A DNA stretch of 37,184 bases, from contig DUEX01000008.1 of the NCBI GenBank assembly GCA_011170325.1, forward strand, positions 18,690 through 55,873. Reading direction: 5' to 3'. This stretch comes from Dehalococcoidia bacterium (lineage in GTDB: Bacteria > Chloroflexota > Dehalococcoidia > GIF9 > UBA5629). Shown here one piece after another: positions 2,699-35,430 of the stretch; within the stretch, counting starts at the first letter, position 1, and every line of letters starts with the position of its first letter. Under the pieces are notes generated by a model. That model did not search any database. It saw only the letters and a list, made by a program, of their open reading frames with translations, and was not told the DNA's origin. The translations under genes and the position numbers were made by a program.

Positions 2699-3022
2699 GT
2701 GAACGCGCCGCTGCGTCTTACAGATGCTACTTTTGAGGAAGAGGTGCTTGAGTCAAAGATTCCTGTCCTGGTTGATTTTTGGGCTTCTTGGTGTCCACCA
2801 TGCAAGATGGTTGAACCGGTGATAGCAAACTTAGCCCAAGAGTATGATGGCAAGATAAAAGTCGCCAAGCTACATGTAGACCAGAACCTAAAGATGGCTT
2901 CTAAGTACCAGATAGTGGGAGTGCCTACTTTTATCTTGTTCGATTCAGGTAAGGAGGTCCAGCGGCGAATAGGAGCACAGTCGAAAGAGCAACTAAATCA
3001 AATGGTAATACAAGCACTGTGA
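2699..3022 (+). CDS. trxA: Thioredoxin
   Basis: A 107-residue protein of normal thioredoxin length, cytoplasmic, with the active site WASWCPPCK at residues 28-36 (Cys32 and Cys35) and the cis-Pro region VGVPTF. The usual Gly of WCGPC is Pro here, a common variant. Translation probably starts at GTG 2699, since GAGGGA lies 9 bases upstream; the nearby ATG at 2691 meets a stop after three codons. It lies between the SqdB-like gene and a glycosyltransferase whose GTG start overlaps its stop, so it belongs to the glycan operon. A role in keeping the SqdB cysteines reduced, or in supplying reductant for sulfite formation, is an inference from position only. Confidence 0.9.
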   Translation: MNAPLRLTDATFEEEVLESKIPVLVDFWASWCPPCKMVEPVIANLAQEYDGKIKVAKLHVDQNLKMASKYQIVGVPTFILFDSGKEVQRRIGAQSKEQLNQMVIQAL

Positions 3023-3663
3023 CTGTCTCAACAGTCATCCCTGCCTACAATGAAGCACGGCGCATTGGTGAGGTGATAAAATCAGCAGCTCAATATGCAG
3101 ACGAGGTCTTGGTTGTTGATGATGGCAGCAGTGATAGCACAGCCAAAGCAGCTAAAGATGCAGGAGCTCTGGTAATATGTAAAGAGCATGGTGGCTACAT
3201 CAGTGCCATCAAGCGAGGCTTCAGTGAAGCCAAAGGTGATACTATAGTGATGATGGACGCAGATGGGGAACATTGTGCTGAAGACATCCCACGATTGGCA
3301 GCACCTATCTTATTCGGAGATGCCGACCTAGTTTTAGGCTCACGACCTCATATCGACCGTCTCTCCGAGCGCTTCATCAACTGGCTGACGAGCTTCAGAG
3401 TGAAGGTAAAAGACTGCGGCAGTGGCTTCCGTGCTATCCGGAGGGACTCAGCTTTAAAGTTAGAGCTGTCAGGTAAATGTACCTGCGGTGTCTTTGTCTT
3501 GGAAGCAGCTTCCCTAGGTTTGCGCATAACTGAGGTACCCATCAACCTTCATTCAATTTCGAAAAGAAGGAGAATTCTCTGGTCCCACTTTCAACAGTTA
3601 TTCTACATATTACATTGGCTGATAAAGTCTCCGGTTCGAAAGTCAGCAGCCAACAGTAGATAG
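3019..3663 (+). CDS. Family 2 glycosyltransferase (dolichyl-phosphate-mannose-synthase-like)
   Basis: A 214-residue GT-A fold enzyme. It shows the N-terminal VIPAYNEARRIGEVI motif, VVDDGSSDSTA for nucleotide binding, MMDADGEH as the DXD-type metal motif, and DCGSGFRAIRRD as in the DPM/DPG-synthase group. No clear membrane segment follows the catalytic domain. The start is a GTG at 3019 overlapping the thioredoxin stop, so translation is probably coupled. The last few codons (RKSAANSR) run into sequence resembling the inverted form of the heptamer repeat described at 3643-3816, so the native C-terminus may have been altered. Donor and acceptor sugars cannot be told. Confidence 0.88.
   Translation: MTVSTVIPAYNEARRIGEVIKSAAQYADEVLVVDDGSSDSTAKAAKDAGALVICKEHGGYISAIKRGFSEAKGDTIVMMDADGEHCAEDIPRLAAPILFGDADLVLGSRPHIDRLSERFINWLTSFRVKVKDCGSGFRAIRRDSALKLELSGKCTCGVFVLEAASLGLRITEVPINLHSISKRRRILWSHFQQLFYILHWLIKSPVRKSAANSR
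3643..3662 (-). repeat. Short heptamer-type repeat, inverted copy
   Basis: The sequence around TCAGCAGCCAACAGTAGATA reads on the - strand as CTACTGTTGGCTGCTGA, the same CTG/GACT-rich heptamer style found at 3772-3816 and 3931-3967. It overlaps the end of the upstream glycosyltransferase gene. The copy is short and degenerate, so it could be coincidence. Confidence 0.35.
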
Positions 3664-3688
3664 TTGTGGTCTAAACCTAATGTCAAGA

Positions 3689-3772
3689 ATGAAGGAATTC
3701 AAAGATATGAAGGTTTGGCAAAAGGCAAGGGGGCTAGCAAAGTGCGTCTACTTAAGGGAAACTAACCAATGA
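3689..3772 (+). pseudogene. Truncated four-helix-bundle (23S rRNA intervening-sequence, S23/IVP type) gene remnant
   Basis: Twenty-seven codons reading MKEFKDMKVWQKARGLAKCV and then YLRETNQ before a TGA. The opening MKxFxD(L/M)KVWQKAxxLAxxVY is the very characteristic N-terminus of the roughly 120-residue four-helix-bundle family found in rRNA intervening sequences and related to the Avd protein of diversity-generating retroelements. The rest is missing: the sequence passes straight into the heptamer repeat, and the TGA overlaps the next ATG. It is therefore either a decayed gene or a short peptide. Such genes travel widely in uncultured bacteria, so this is a sign of past insertion in the glycan operon. 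Confidence 0.65.
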
Positions 3773-4743
3773 CTGCCAATCGCCGGCTACCGACCGCTGA
3801 CTGTCGACTATCGACTATCTTAGTCACTGGCGGCTGTGGTTTTATAGGCACCAACTTGGTGCGGTATTTATTTAGCAAAGGCTACAAAATCAGAGTCCTC
3901 GATAACCTATCCACTGGCAAAAAGGAGAACCTGCTGACTGCTGATTATCAACTGCCGACTGCCGACTTGATAGTAGGAGACATTCGAGACAGAGATGTAG
4001 TCGAAAAGGCTGTGGAAGATATAGATGCTGCCATTCACCTAGCAGCCCACACCAGCGTAGTGGAATCATTAGACAACCCAGAGGAAGATTGGAATATTAA
4101 TGTCACAGGCACACTTAACCTTCTGGAAGCTTGCTGCCTCAAAGGAGTGAAGAAATTTATCTTTGCTTCCTCCAACGCTGTGCTGGGCGAGCAGCCTCCT
4201 CCAGTTGACGAAATGAAAATTCCCAAACCACTTTCTCCCTACGGAGCTTCTAAGCTAGCCTGCGAAGCCCTATGTTCCGCCTATTACCACTCCTTCGGCT
4301 TAAACACCATCTCTCTCCGCTTCGCCAACTGCTACGGTCCTTATTCTGAGCACAAGGCCAGCGTGATTGCTAGATTTATGGACTGGGCAAGACAAGGCAA
4401 ACCCCTTATAATCTACGGTGATGGCAAACAGACTAGAGATTTTATCCATGTGGACGATGTCTGCCAGGCAATCCATCTCTGCCTAACAGCTGCTGACTCG
4501 ATAGCTGGTAAGATTTTCCAGATAGCCAGTGGAGTCGAGACCAATATTGATGAACTTGCCAAGATGATAAAGGAGATAATAGAAAGGAATGTGCCGACTA
4601 TTTATGAGCCGAAGCGAAAAGGAGAAATTGAGAGAAACTACTCTGACATAACCAAAGCAAGGAGAGTGCTAGGCTTCAAGCCCAAAGTCACACTTAAACA
4701 AGGGCTGCACGATTTGTGGGAACGCTATACAGTCCAAGATTAG
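3769..4743 (+). CDS. NAD-dependent sugar-nucleotide epimerase/dehydratase (extended SDR) carrying repeat-encoded insertions
   Basis: A 324-residue extended SDR. The Rossmann motif TGGCGFIG lies near 20-27, the catalytic YGASK near 158-162, and RFANCYGPYS plus TRDFIHVDD downstream match UDP-glucose 4-epimerase-like enzymes. Two pieces do not belong to the family fold. Residues 2-16 come from heptamer repeat copy 1, and residues about 56-66 (LTADYQLPTAD) come from copy 2, sitting between the STGKKENL loop and LIVGDIRD where homologues have a short variable loop. The frame is preserved through both, so the enzyme may still fold. The start ATG overlaps the stop of the preceding remnant. Which epimer it makes cannot be read. 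Confidence 0.85.
   Translation: MTANRRLPTADCRLSTILVTGGCGFIGTNLVRYLFSKGYKIRVLDNLSTGKKENLLTADYQLPTADLIVGDIRDRDVVEKAVEDIDAAIHLAAHTSVVESLDNPEEDWNINVTGTLNLLEACCLKGVKKFIFASSNAVLGEQPPPVDEMKIPKPLSPYGASKLACEALCSAYYHSFGLNTISLRFANCYGPYSEHKASVIARFMDWARQGKPLIIYGDGKQTRDFIHVDDVCQAIHLCLTAADSIAGKIFQIASGVETNIDELAKMIKEIIERNVPTIYEPKRKGEIERNYSDITKARRVLGFKPKVTLKQGLHDLWERYTVQD
3772..3816 (+). repeat. Heptanucleotide tandem repeat, copy 1, translated as epimerase N-terminus
   Basis: About 45 bases built of diverged seven-base units of the GACTGCC/GACTACC type, for example GACCGCTGACTGTCGACTAT. Because three units make seven codons, the translation is heptapeptide-like: TANRRL, then PTADCRL. It provides the start region of the epimerase and directly follows the four-helix-bundle remnant. 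Confidence 0.7.
3931..3967 (+). repeat. Heptanucleotide tandem repeat, copy 2, inside the epimerase gene
   Basis: The units CTGCTGA CTGCTGA TTATCAA CTGCCGA CTGCCGA CTT show a clear seven-base period. The stretch is in frame in the epimerase and encodes LTADYQLPTAD. It is the same family as the copy at 3772-3816, so this gene was hit twice or the repeat spread locally. Confidence 0.8.
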
Positions 4744-33202: not shown

Positions 33203-33236
33203 ACGTAGGGACAGACCTTCAGGTCTGTCCCTACGT
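33203..33236. repeat. Perfect 16-base palindrome, possible hairpin
   Basis: ACGTAGGGACAGACCT at 33203-33218 is followed by TC and then its exact reverse complement at 33221-33236. The stem would have about 15 pairs and a 4-base loop. It sits 10 bases beyond the previous palindrome and no T-run follows, so a mobile or protein-binding repeat is more likely than an intrinsic terminator. Confidence 0.8.
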
Positions 33237-33441: not shown

Positions 33442-33666
33442 ATGGGTGAAGAGGAAAGGAGGTTTACCACGGTTTCTATACCAACGCCGCTATTCAGGAA
33501 AGTCGAGGAGCGCATTAAGGGGACGGGCTTCACCTCAGTGTCAAGCTATGTTACCTACGTGCTGAGGGAGGTGGTCTCTGAGGAAGAGGAGGAAGCTGAG
33601 CCGTTTACCAAGGAAGACGAGGAGAGAGTAAAGGAAAGGCTGAGGGCGCTGGGATACCTAGATTAA
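33442..33666 (+). CDS. Small ribbon-helix-helix-like protein
   Basis: A 74-residue protein. Residues 6-48 (RRFTTVSIPTPLFRKVEERI, then SSYVTYVLREVV) have the strand-helix-helix pattern of CopG/Arc-type DNA-binding domains. An acidic stretch EEEEEAEPF leads into the tail EDEERVKERLRALGYLD. A strong AAAGGAGG site precedes the ATG. As first gene behind a consensus promoter, it could regulate this operon, perhaps its own; that is inference. The tail resembles the ends of sulfatase/phosphodiesterase proteins, discussed in the findings. Confidence 0.75.
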   Translation: MGEEERRFTTVSIPTPLFRKVEERIKGTGFTSVSSYVTYVLREVVSEEEEEAEPFTKEDEERVKERLRALGYLD

Positions 33667-33670
33667 GGGT

Positions 33671-33697
33671 TAGAGGTCAAAGGTCAAAAGTTAGAGA
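33671..33697 (+). repeat. Short degenerate TTAGAGGTCAAAGGTCAAAAG repeat
   Basis: TTAGAGGTCAAAGGTCAAAAG then TTAGAGATT is a small tandem run of about 8-base units in the gap between the ribbon-helix-helix gene and tauE. It leaves no clear ribosome-binding site for tauE. Similar low-complexity sequence lies between cysD and cysN. Confidence 0.5.
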
Positions 33698-33699
33698 TT

Positions 33700-34494
33700 A
33701 TGGAAAGGTGGGTATCGCTTTCAGTCTTCCTCACCATAGGTTTTTTTGCCCAATTTATTGACGGCACAGTTGGCATGGGCTATGGGGCTTTTTCCGCATC
33801 ATTACTCATCGGCATGGGGATTATGCCGGCTCTTGCCAGTGCCAGCATTCACACTGCGGAGATAGCTGTCTCCTTTTTTTCCGGCGTCTCCCATTTAAGA
33901 TTTGGCAATGTCAAAAAGGAATGGCTCCTGCTTTTAGTCATCCCAGGGGCTGTAGGAGGAGCTCTGGGAGCATATTTCTTAGCTTCCATACCCGGGGGCA
34001 CCATAAAACCTTTCATCGCTGGCTTTCTCCTCCTCATGGGCGTAGTCATCCTTTATAGATTTGTGCCACCAAAGAGGATCCCCTCTCCTTCGCGCCTTTC
34101 TGTAGCTTTATCTAATCCAAAAATTTCCTCTCACAAGATCTCAGCCCTTGGCTTTATCGCTTCTTTTTTCGACGCTGTAGGTGGAGGAGGTTGGGGACCT
34201 ATCGCCACGCCCGGTCTTATTCTTACTGAGAATACAGAGCCGCGGAAGGTCATCGGCACTATCAATCTGGCAGAGTTCTTCATCACCATAGTTATAGCTA
34301 TAACCTTTTTCATAGTTTTGGGGACAGAAGAATATGACTGGAGCATGATTGGCATGCTGCTCATAGGCGGTGCTATGGCAGCACCCTTAGCCGCTTACTT
34401 ATGCAAGAGGCTACCTGCCAGAATGCTGGGTATATTGGTGGGCACAGCCCTTATCGGATTTAATGTGAGAACACTTCTGATAGCGCTGTTATGA
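33700..34494 (+). CDS. TauE/SafE family sulfite/organosulfur permease
   Basis: A 264-residue membrane protein with about eight hydrophobic segments and duplicated Gly-rich halves: GFFAQFIDGTVGMGYGAFSA near the N-terminus and ASFFDAVGGGGWGPIATPGL in the second half are hallmarks of TauE/SafE proteins. Family members export sulfite or sulfoacetate or import sulfate-like ions. Position before cysD suggests movement of sulfate or sulfite; the direction cannot be read. Start ATG 33700 lacks a good ribosome site, so coupling from the upstream gene is possible. Confidence 0.9.
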   Translation: MERWVSLSVFLTIGFFAQFIDGTVGMGYGAFSASLLIGMGIMPALASASIHTAEIAVSFFSGVSHLRFGNVKKEWLLLLVIPGAVGGALGAYFLASIPGGTIKPFIAGFLLLMGVVILYRFVPPKRIPSPSRLSVALSNPKISSHKISALGFIASFFDAVGGGGWGPIATPGLILTENTEPRKVIGTINLAEFFITIVIAITFFIVLGTEEYDWSMIGMLLIGGAMAAPLAAYLCKRLPARMLGILVGTALIGFNVRTLLIALL

Positions 34495-34514: not shown

Positions 34515-35315
34515 ATGTTGGAATTAAAGGACTTAGAAAACAGAAGTATCTATATACTGAGGGAGGCCTATGCCGAATTTAAGAGACCAGCGGTTCTGTG
34601 GAGCACCGGGAAGGATAGCACCGCTACCCTTTGGCTGTGCAAGAAGGCATTCTTTGGCAAGATCCCATTCCCTGTAATCCACATAGACACTACCTACAAG
34701 TTCAAGCAGATGTATGCCTTCAGGAACAATCTGGCCAAGGAATGGGGGATGAACCTGATAGTGGCCAGAAACGAGGAGGCGATTAAAGAAGGGGTTGGCC
34801 CCAAGGATGGGAAATTCGAGTGTTGCACCAGCTTAAAAACACAGGCTTTGATGAGCTGCCTCGAGGAGAACAGGTTTGATGCCTTGATCCTAGCCATAAG
34901 AAGGGATGAGCACGGAATTCGAGCCAAGGAGAGGTATTTCTCCCCCCGGGACGAAGACTTCAAATGGAATTACAAGGACCAGCCGCTGGAGATGTGGGAC
35001 CAATATCAAAGCACAACTGAGGATAAGACCCACACCAGGGTCCATCCCATCCTCCACTGGAGAGAATTGGATGTCTGGGAATATGTAAAGCAGGAGAATC
35101 TCCCGGTAAATCCAATGTACTTTGCCAAGGATGGCAAGAGGTACCGCAGCTTAGGATGCGAGCCTTGTACTTCCACTATCGACTCTGATGCCAAAACTAT
35201 AGAAGAGATAGTGGAGGAACTAAAGGTAACCAAAATAGCAGAGAGGTCTGGCAGGGCTCAGGACAAGGAGAAGGCATTCACCATGCAAAAACTCCGTGCA
35301 TTGGGCTACATGTAG
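34515..35315 (+). CDS. cysD: Sulfate adenylyltransferase subunit 2 (CysD-type)
   Basis: A 266-residue PP-loop ATP pyrophosphatase. PAVLWSTGKDSTATLWL carries the PP-loop (STGKDS at 30-35; SGGKDS is usual), followed by HIDTTYKFKQMYAFRN, AIRRDEHGIRAKERYFSPRD, HTRVHPILHWRELDVWEY and RSLGCEPCTSTI, all typical of CysD. It adenylates sulfate to APS, with CysN supplying GTP energy. The tail ends MQKLRALGYM. GGAGG is close before the ATG. The CysD-like family also includes PAPS reductases, but the CysN partner downstream settles the call. Confidence 0.93.
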   Translation: MLELKDLENRSIYILREAYAEFKRPAVLWSTGKDSTATLWLCKKAFFGKIPFPVIHIDTTYKFKQMYAFRNNLAKEWGMNLIVARNEEAIKEGVGPKDGKFECCTSLKTQALMSCLEENRFDALILAIRRDEHGIRAKERYFSPRDEDFKWNYKDQPLEMWDQYQSTTEDKTHTRVHPILHWRELDVWEYVKQENLPVNPMYFAKDGKRYRSLGCEPCTSTIDSDAKTIEEIVEELKVTKIAERSGRAQDKEKAFTMQKLRALGYM

Positions 35316-35323
35316 GCAAAAGG

Positions 35324-35430
35324 CAAAGGTTAAAGATAAAAATGCAAAATGACAAGTTAAAATTCAAAGGTTCTTCAGGGCTATTTTTCTCTTTTGCATT
35401 GTCATTTCGACTTTTAACTCTTAAACTTTG
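35324..35430. repeat. Long imperfect inverted repeat in the cysD-cysN gap
   Basis: Bases 35324-35355 (CAAAGGTTAAAGATAAAAAT and onward to GACAA) and 35399-35430 are reverse complements at 24 of 32 positions without gaps, around a 43-base loop in which a few more pairs can form. It fills almost all of the 139-base gap before the cysN ribosome site. It is low-complexity and AT-rich, and could form an mRNA hairpin that sets the ratio of cysD to cysN product or be a dispersed repeat. Confidence 0.55.

Follow-up and report, generated by a model that had tools for sequence, protein, structure and literature searches.

Heptamer arrays translated in a Dehalococcoidia epimerase gene are probably remains of an S23 element with heptamer arms

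Why should degenerate heptanucleotide repeats form part of a protein-coding sequence? The question is raised by a gene for a NAD-dependent epimerase/dehydratase (3769-4743, plus strand; PF01370, E=2e-64) of a Dehalococcoidia bacterium, which lies in a stretch of 37,184 nucleotides from contig DUEX01000008.1, referred to here as the window. The Rossmann motif TGGCGFIG and the YxxxK motif of the enzyme are intact. An earlier note on this DNA had described two in-frame arrays in the gene and had interpreted them as a spreading repeat that became protein sequence. The presence of both arrays is borne out by the sequence, the reading frame and the self-similarity at a lag of seven bases: the direct array at 3772-3816 (plus strand) encodes residues 2-16 and the second direct array at 3931-3967 (plus strand) encodes approximately residues 55-67, with lag-7 scores of 20/28 and 19/28, respectively, and peaks of 15-18 at the other tested lags (3-19). 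The unit of both direct arrays is degenerate and reads about YGACTNN. Downstream of the in-frame stop codon at 3763-3765 and ahead of the first Rossmann strand, the ATG at 3769 is the sole ATG, GTG or TTG in frame, so that the first array has to be translated if the gene is expressed.

Shuffling the order of the residues with local codon usage reached the observed lag-7 score in none of 5000 cases for each array. Synonymous resampling equalled it in 168 (3772-3816) and 43 (3931-3967) of 5000 cases, and because the score is so seldom reached, the periodicity of the DNA is somewhat above what the peptide alone requires. Tandem Repeats Finder reported no array at a score of 40 because the units are too degenerate. 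Elsewhere in the window there are two more intergenic lag-7 stretches, at 33656-33709 (TTAGAGGTCAAAGGTC) and at 35312-35374 (A-rich); the latter has partly complementary flanks that reach to about 35440, with a fold no better than that of shuffled sequences. A palindromic element of a different type is located at 33203-33236; its two 16-bp halves are inverted copies without a mismatch, separated by two bases (ACGTAGGGACAGACCT; RNA fold z=-7.7).

The sequence upstream of the epimerase gene holds a third array, found by a degenerate pattern match, which is inverted relative to the other two (AACTATCTACTGTTGGCTGCTGACT on the minus strand, 3641-3665). On the plus strand it reads SAANSR followed by a stop codon and forms the 3' end of a family 2 glycosyltransferase gene (3019-3663, plus strand; open reading frame and Pfam). 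Between this left arm and the first direct array, which represents the right arm, we found the N-terminus of a truncated gene of the S23 or 23S_rRNA_IVP family of four-helix-bundle proteins (PF05635; 3689-3751, plus strand; MKEFKDMKVWQKARGLAKCVY). About 21 S23 codons are left at the locus, and the frame runs on to a stop codon at 3770-3772 that overlaps the ATG of the epimerase gene. With an N-terminal profile built from the S23 proteins collected in this analysis, the remnant ranked first among 10,202 open reading frames in 268 kb of its own genome (E=6.9e-9, 34 bits), and a profile of the whole family gave E=1e-4. The match to Pfam PF05635 itself covers profile positions 1-18 and reaches 13.6 bits, below the cut-off of 33.8, so that the remnant is related to the N-terminus of PF05635/TIGR02436 proteins but does not qualify as a full-length member, whereas the S23 protein of the closest relative with the epimerase (L004) does so with 112 bits. 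The window thus contains a left arm (3641-3665, minus strand), an S23 N-terminus and a right arm (3772-3816, plus strand) in the right order and orientation. The duplex of left and right arm has a calculated energy of -24.1 kcal/mol, a value as low as this occurring in 11 of 500 mononucleotide shuffles, and the duplex of the left arm with the loop array at 3931-3967 has -26.5 kcal/mol. A strong RNA hairpin spanning the whole locus was also considered but is not supported, since the fold of the complete locus was not clearly beyond that of shuffled sequences (z=-1.65).

The same architecture surrounds S23 genes in many phyla. At 80 S23 loci, which were found with patterns of one S23 subfamily and some of which are closely related, lag-7 arrays occur at 1.67 per kb within 300 bp of the S23 gene versus 0.10 per kb elsewhere (about 16-fold, p=5e-56), and no other period is enriched there except 14, a multiple of seven. 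Arrays are present on both sides of the gene at 51 loci, where the arms are inverted in 43 (p=7e-7) and direct in eight, and the mean similarity of the two arms of a locus exceeds that of all 300 shuffled pairings. The commonest form, (NNTCAGC)n - S23 - (GCTGANN)n, combines five fixed with two variable bases. The enrichment was repeated at 30 S23 loci on viral contigs (1.72 versus 0.15 arrays per kb). Of the cyanobacterial plasmid loci, six were examined, and each of them has an array on either side of the gene; the arms in two Nostoc are of the type GGGAACA...CTGTTCC, whereas in Pseudanabaena the arms next to the gene are direct, with an inverted array at a greater distance. Closer to the window, L004 has a complete S23 gene with 9-nt arrays directly upstream of the epimerase gene, and a genome of the same family (G003, locus L047) carries an intact S23 gene flanked by CGACTGC-type units like those of the window. 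Two further ideas were dropped: five units per array, matching an S23 pentamer, are unsupported as counts of three and four dominate, and an orientation bias along the replichores is weak in one genome, while the S23 genes of the different loci show none (27 versus 25).

Among known systems, the intervening sequences (IVS) of 23S rRNA, for example in Coxiella burnetii, come closest in that they combine an S23-family open reading frame with inverted terminal sequences, and in C. burnetii tandem heptamers (GACAGAT) lie just upstream of the S23 frame (PMC4990558). In a literature search that was incomplete for subscription papers and preprints this was the sole link between S23 and heptamers, and the novelty of the general pattern is therefore provisional. 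The IVS are located in 23S rRNA helices, whereas the annotated elements examined here, as well as the one in the window, lie between protein-coding genes and have arrays as arms on both sides. The S23 elements with heptamer arms look like an undescribed generalisation of the ribosomal IVS. Heptamers are also known from other bacteria, namely TAACTGA in Beggiatoaceae (PMC4679880), GGGAATC in Xanthomonas and GGGGA(T/C)T in Nostoc (PMC4692102), and share the period of seven, the mostly intergenic position, the variable units and the dispersed distribution with the arrays described here, which differ in their link to S23 genes and in their pairing as inverted arms. S23-related terms were not found when the Beggiatoaceae paper was searched by keyword, and the passages of PMC4692102 drawn on here do not mention an S23 gene. 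Avd, the accessory protein of diversity-generating retroelements (DGRs), has a four-helix-bundle fold related to that of S23, and PF05635 is frequent near DGRs (PMC10053308). However, two intact S23 proteins score 20.9-21.2 bits versus the NCBIfam Avd cut-off of 80, and the S23 elements reach neither an Avd-level match nor an association with reverse transcriptase. Finally, MITEs and REP/REPIN sequences are likewise small and dispersed with ends able to pair, and they include forms without an open reading frame, but the ends of S23 elements are short-period arrays with variable units, there is no association with a Y1 transposase and a cognate enzyme (PF01797 being the family tested) was not found in the genome under study. 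A search with PADLOC gave no match of S23 to a known defence gene.

At several junctions the whole block of arms and gene is present in one genome and absent in a related one. In Calothrix brevissima, arm, S23 gene and arm lie between the stop codon of an integrase gene and the next conserved ATG, a site at which three relatives have 3 bp. Empty sites were found on plasmids of Calothrix/Tolypothrix, Nostoc and Pseudanabaena: the Nostoc site is filled in CCNP1411 and C052, consists of 52 bp in C057 and holds paired arms without S23 in ATCC 53789, and the S23 gene between cas6 and cas4 of Pseudanabaena galeata corresponds to 36 bp in strain ABRG5-3. The type I-D CRISPR-cas operon of the P. galeata plasmid pPg_01 (L242), which carries this S23 gene at cas6-cas4, has in addition an array pair without an open reading frame at cas4-cas1. 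Within one genus the fsa-rho junction measures 15 bp (G119), 13 bp (G216), 39 bp (G167) or 55 bp (G224), contains an intact S23 gene with differing units in G157 and G177 and a truncated one in G105, and in G225 (L183) it is occupied by a TIGR02436 four-helix-bundle gene of a second type (DLEERT...SGSIGANYIEAN), which is flanked by A+T-rich arrays such as ATTAGATATTAGA. At one site in two Poribacteria (L158 and L163) the S23 DNA is 97% identical and the flanks are 86-87% identical, which suggests that the element by itself was recently transferred or converted; in a second Poribacteria pair at this site the arm unit is changed on both sides. A precise deletion is possible in any single case, but vertical inheritance alone fits the presence and absence data poorly. 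The glycosyltransferase-epimerase junction of the window had no orthologous counterpart lacking the element among the genomes searched, and the insertion at this site is therefore proposed by analogy.

Arms of this kind can supply the ends of proteins. The left arm holds the stop codon of the upstream gene at 28 of 61 loci. In Pseudanabaena, a comparison with the relative that has the empty site assigns the C-terminus KRLLAISC* of cas6 to the arm, and the annotated N-terminus of the Calothrix protein is encoded by TACACCC units ahead of the conserved ATG; in the relatives with empty sites these residues are different or missing. At the junction in the window the arms encode the C-terminus of the glycosyltransferase and the N-terminus of the epimerase. 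This part of the original idea, repeat DNA turned into protein, stands for both sides of the junction. A spread of the repeat through this genome was rejected. A degenerate RAYTRYY pattern (25-mer, at most two mismatches) matched six times in the 1.8-Mb genome, every time within about 330 bp of the locus, and the reversed pattern used as control gave zero matches. A stricter pattern added one match in dapA on another contig, which is probably due to chance, and no array with a lag-7 score of at least 21/28 was found in 268 kb of the genome; these counts rest on pattern searches and on the sampled stretches (268 kb). PF05635 gave no match when the genome was searched with it, as S23 is left there in fragments only. 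The second-ranked open reading frame of the search with the N-terminal profile (E=0.002; G000:C1, about 4002-4112, locus L226) is probably the remnant of a second S23 element with a layout like that of the window, as the C-terminus and stop codon of a histidine kinase are made of a heptamer stretch there, and IFEGLVVWQKAH comes next.

The loop array requires a separate look. It does lie in the loop described earlier, which connects Rossmann strand 2 with GDIRD, but the alignment with homologues does not support a fresh insertion: the loop is longer than in other homologues and of equal length in the closest one (L004, 69% identical). An independent 9-nt array (INSTNSINSITPQ) occurs in the same loop of the epimerase homologue L007. 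AlphaFold2, run with a shallow alignment of six sequences, predicted residues 1-9 and 57-61 with low confidence (pLDDT <50 at 57-61), and the model is consistent with exposed, tolerant segments at both positions. Adjoining the L007 epimerase gene is a UDP-GlcNAc 2-epimerase-like gene (L007 2600-3856) with several stretches encoded by short-period repeats (QNQNLNLNLSLSLN, ESQSESQSKSQSESESK).

There are several other ways to account for the heptamers. Polymerase slippage has been proposed as the cause of the excess of heptamers in bacteria (PMC4692102, PMC4679880), and the two separate arrays within one gene could have arisen as microsatellites in the epimerase gene itself, with the S23-like peptide as a coincidence. 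We regard this as very unlikely, since slippage predicts neither the inverted third array nor an S23 remnant between inverted arrays (E=7e-9) nor the 16-fold enrichment beside S23 genes, the units vary at two positions unlike simple slippage products, and for the general pattern slippage is refuted by the empty sites. More weight has to be given to the possibility that the arrays form a dispersed repeat or a regulatory element in their own right, next to which S23 genes insert or are retained without a role in its spread. Most heptamer arrays of G177 have no S23 gene nearby, so that arms either outlast S23 genes or move separately; in 400 kb of this genome no arrays were found at periods 4-6, 8 or 10-13, and 9-nt arrays (AATACTACC) occur alongside the 7-nt arrays at L205 12541-12670 and L209 2745-2810. 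The many solitary arrays of G177, the arm pairs lacking S23 at cas4-cas1 of Pseudanabaena and in Nostoc ATCC 53789, and the regulatory roles suggested for TAACTGA repeats (PMC4679880) would all fit an independent repeat. On the other hand, the empty sites of Calothrix lack both arms and S23 and have 3 bp left, the arms vary between loci yet match inside each locus, and S23 genes are far commoner in genomes with arrays: without correction for kinship among the 197 genomes of the class, S23 is carried by 19 of the 23 with GCTGANN arrays (four have no detectable S23) versus 46 of 174 others (p=2.7e-7). Taken together, we consider an independent repeat possible but rather unlikely.

The remaining alternatives concern the enzyme that would move the element. 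The relationship of S23 to Avd, which shows up as a weak NCBIfam match below the cut-off and has been discussed as homology (PMC10053308), could indicate that an RNA copy is inserted by reverse transcriptase with S23 acting like the Avd of DGRs. We think this improbable: PF00078 is associated neither with S23 (9/25 versus 56/172, p=0.82) nor with the arrays (p=0.74) in the 197 genomes, it was not found in the genome of the window, and it is unmatched in G157 and G177, two complete genomes with S23 and many arrays. Still less probable is that the arrays are non-autonomous elements mobilised by a hairpin-recognising Y1 transposase of the IS200/IS605 or REP-associated type. Small intergenic elements that are able to form hairpins, including forms without an open reading frame, do resemble REP/REPIN in general shape, but PF01797 is not associated with the arrays (8/23 versus 53/174, p=0.64) and is unmatched in G157, G167 and G177 as in the genome studied here.

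We therefore favour the explanation that the arrays in the window once served as arms to an S23 element, which has decayed and lost most of its S23 gene, and consider this highly probable. Such an element is a short insert separating two neighbouring genes, in which an S23/IVP gene stands between two heptamer arrays; one of them covers or adjoins the stop codon of the upstream gene, and the other, usually inverted, lies immediately in front of the next start codon. By analogy with the other loci, it would have inserted between the glycosyltransferase and the epimerase gene; a deletion would then have removed most of the S23 gene, and the ATG next to the right arm may have become the start of the epimerase, which would have turned the arm into residues 2-16. 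A single element does not account for the loop array, which might be a second and possibly older array. With regard to the movement of the element, we rate as likeliest, although as a doubtful proposal, that the arms are bound by an S23 oligomer, which would allow enzymes of the host to copy the element to a new intergenic site. The solved structures of the S23 family (2GSC and 2RLD) contain five chains per entry, and a title cited in PMC10053308 refers to Xcc0516 as five four-helix bundles.

As the annotated N- and C-termini encoded by arms are not ancestral sequence, these elements matter for gene calling and for the origin of new protein sequence. In a wider sense, S23/IVP proteins could be the dedicated factors of widespread, undescribed minimal mobile elements, which would be recognised by their heptamer arms and inserted at the stop codons of genes in operons. 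A large share of the unexplained heptanucleotide repeats of bacteria could be arms, solitary arms or scars of such elements; we put this forward tentatively and do not yet hold it to be the likelier outcome. It would join two old puzzles, the role of the S23/IVP proteins of ribosomal intervening sequences and the abundance of heptamers among the longer bacterial repeats, both of which become directly testable through the association with S23 genes, the inversion of the arms and the empty sites.
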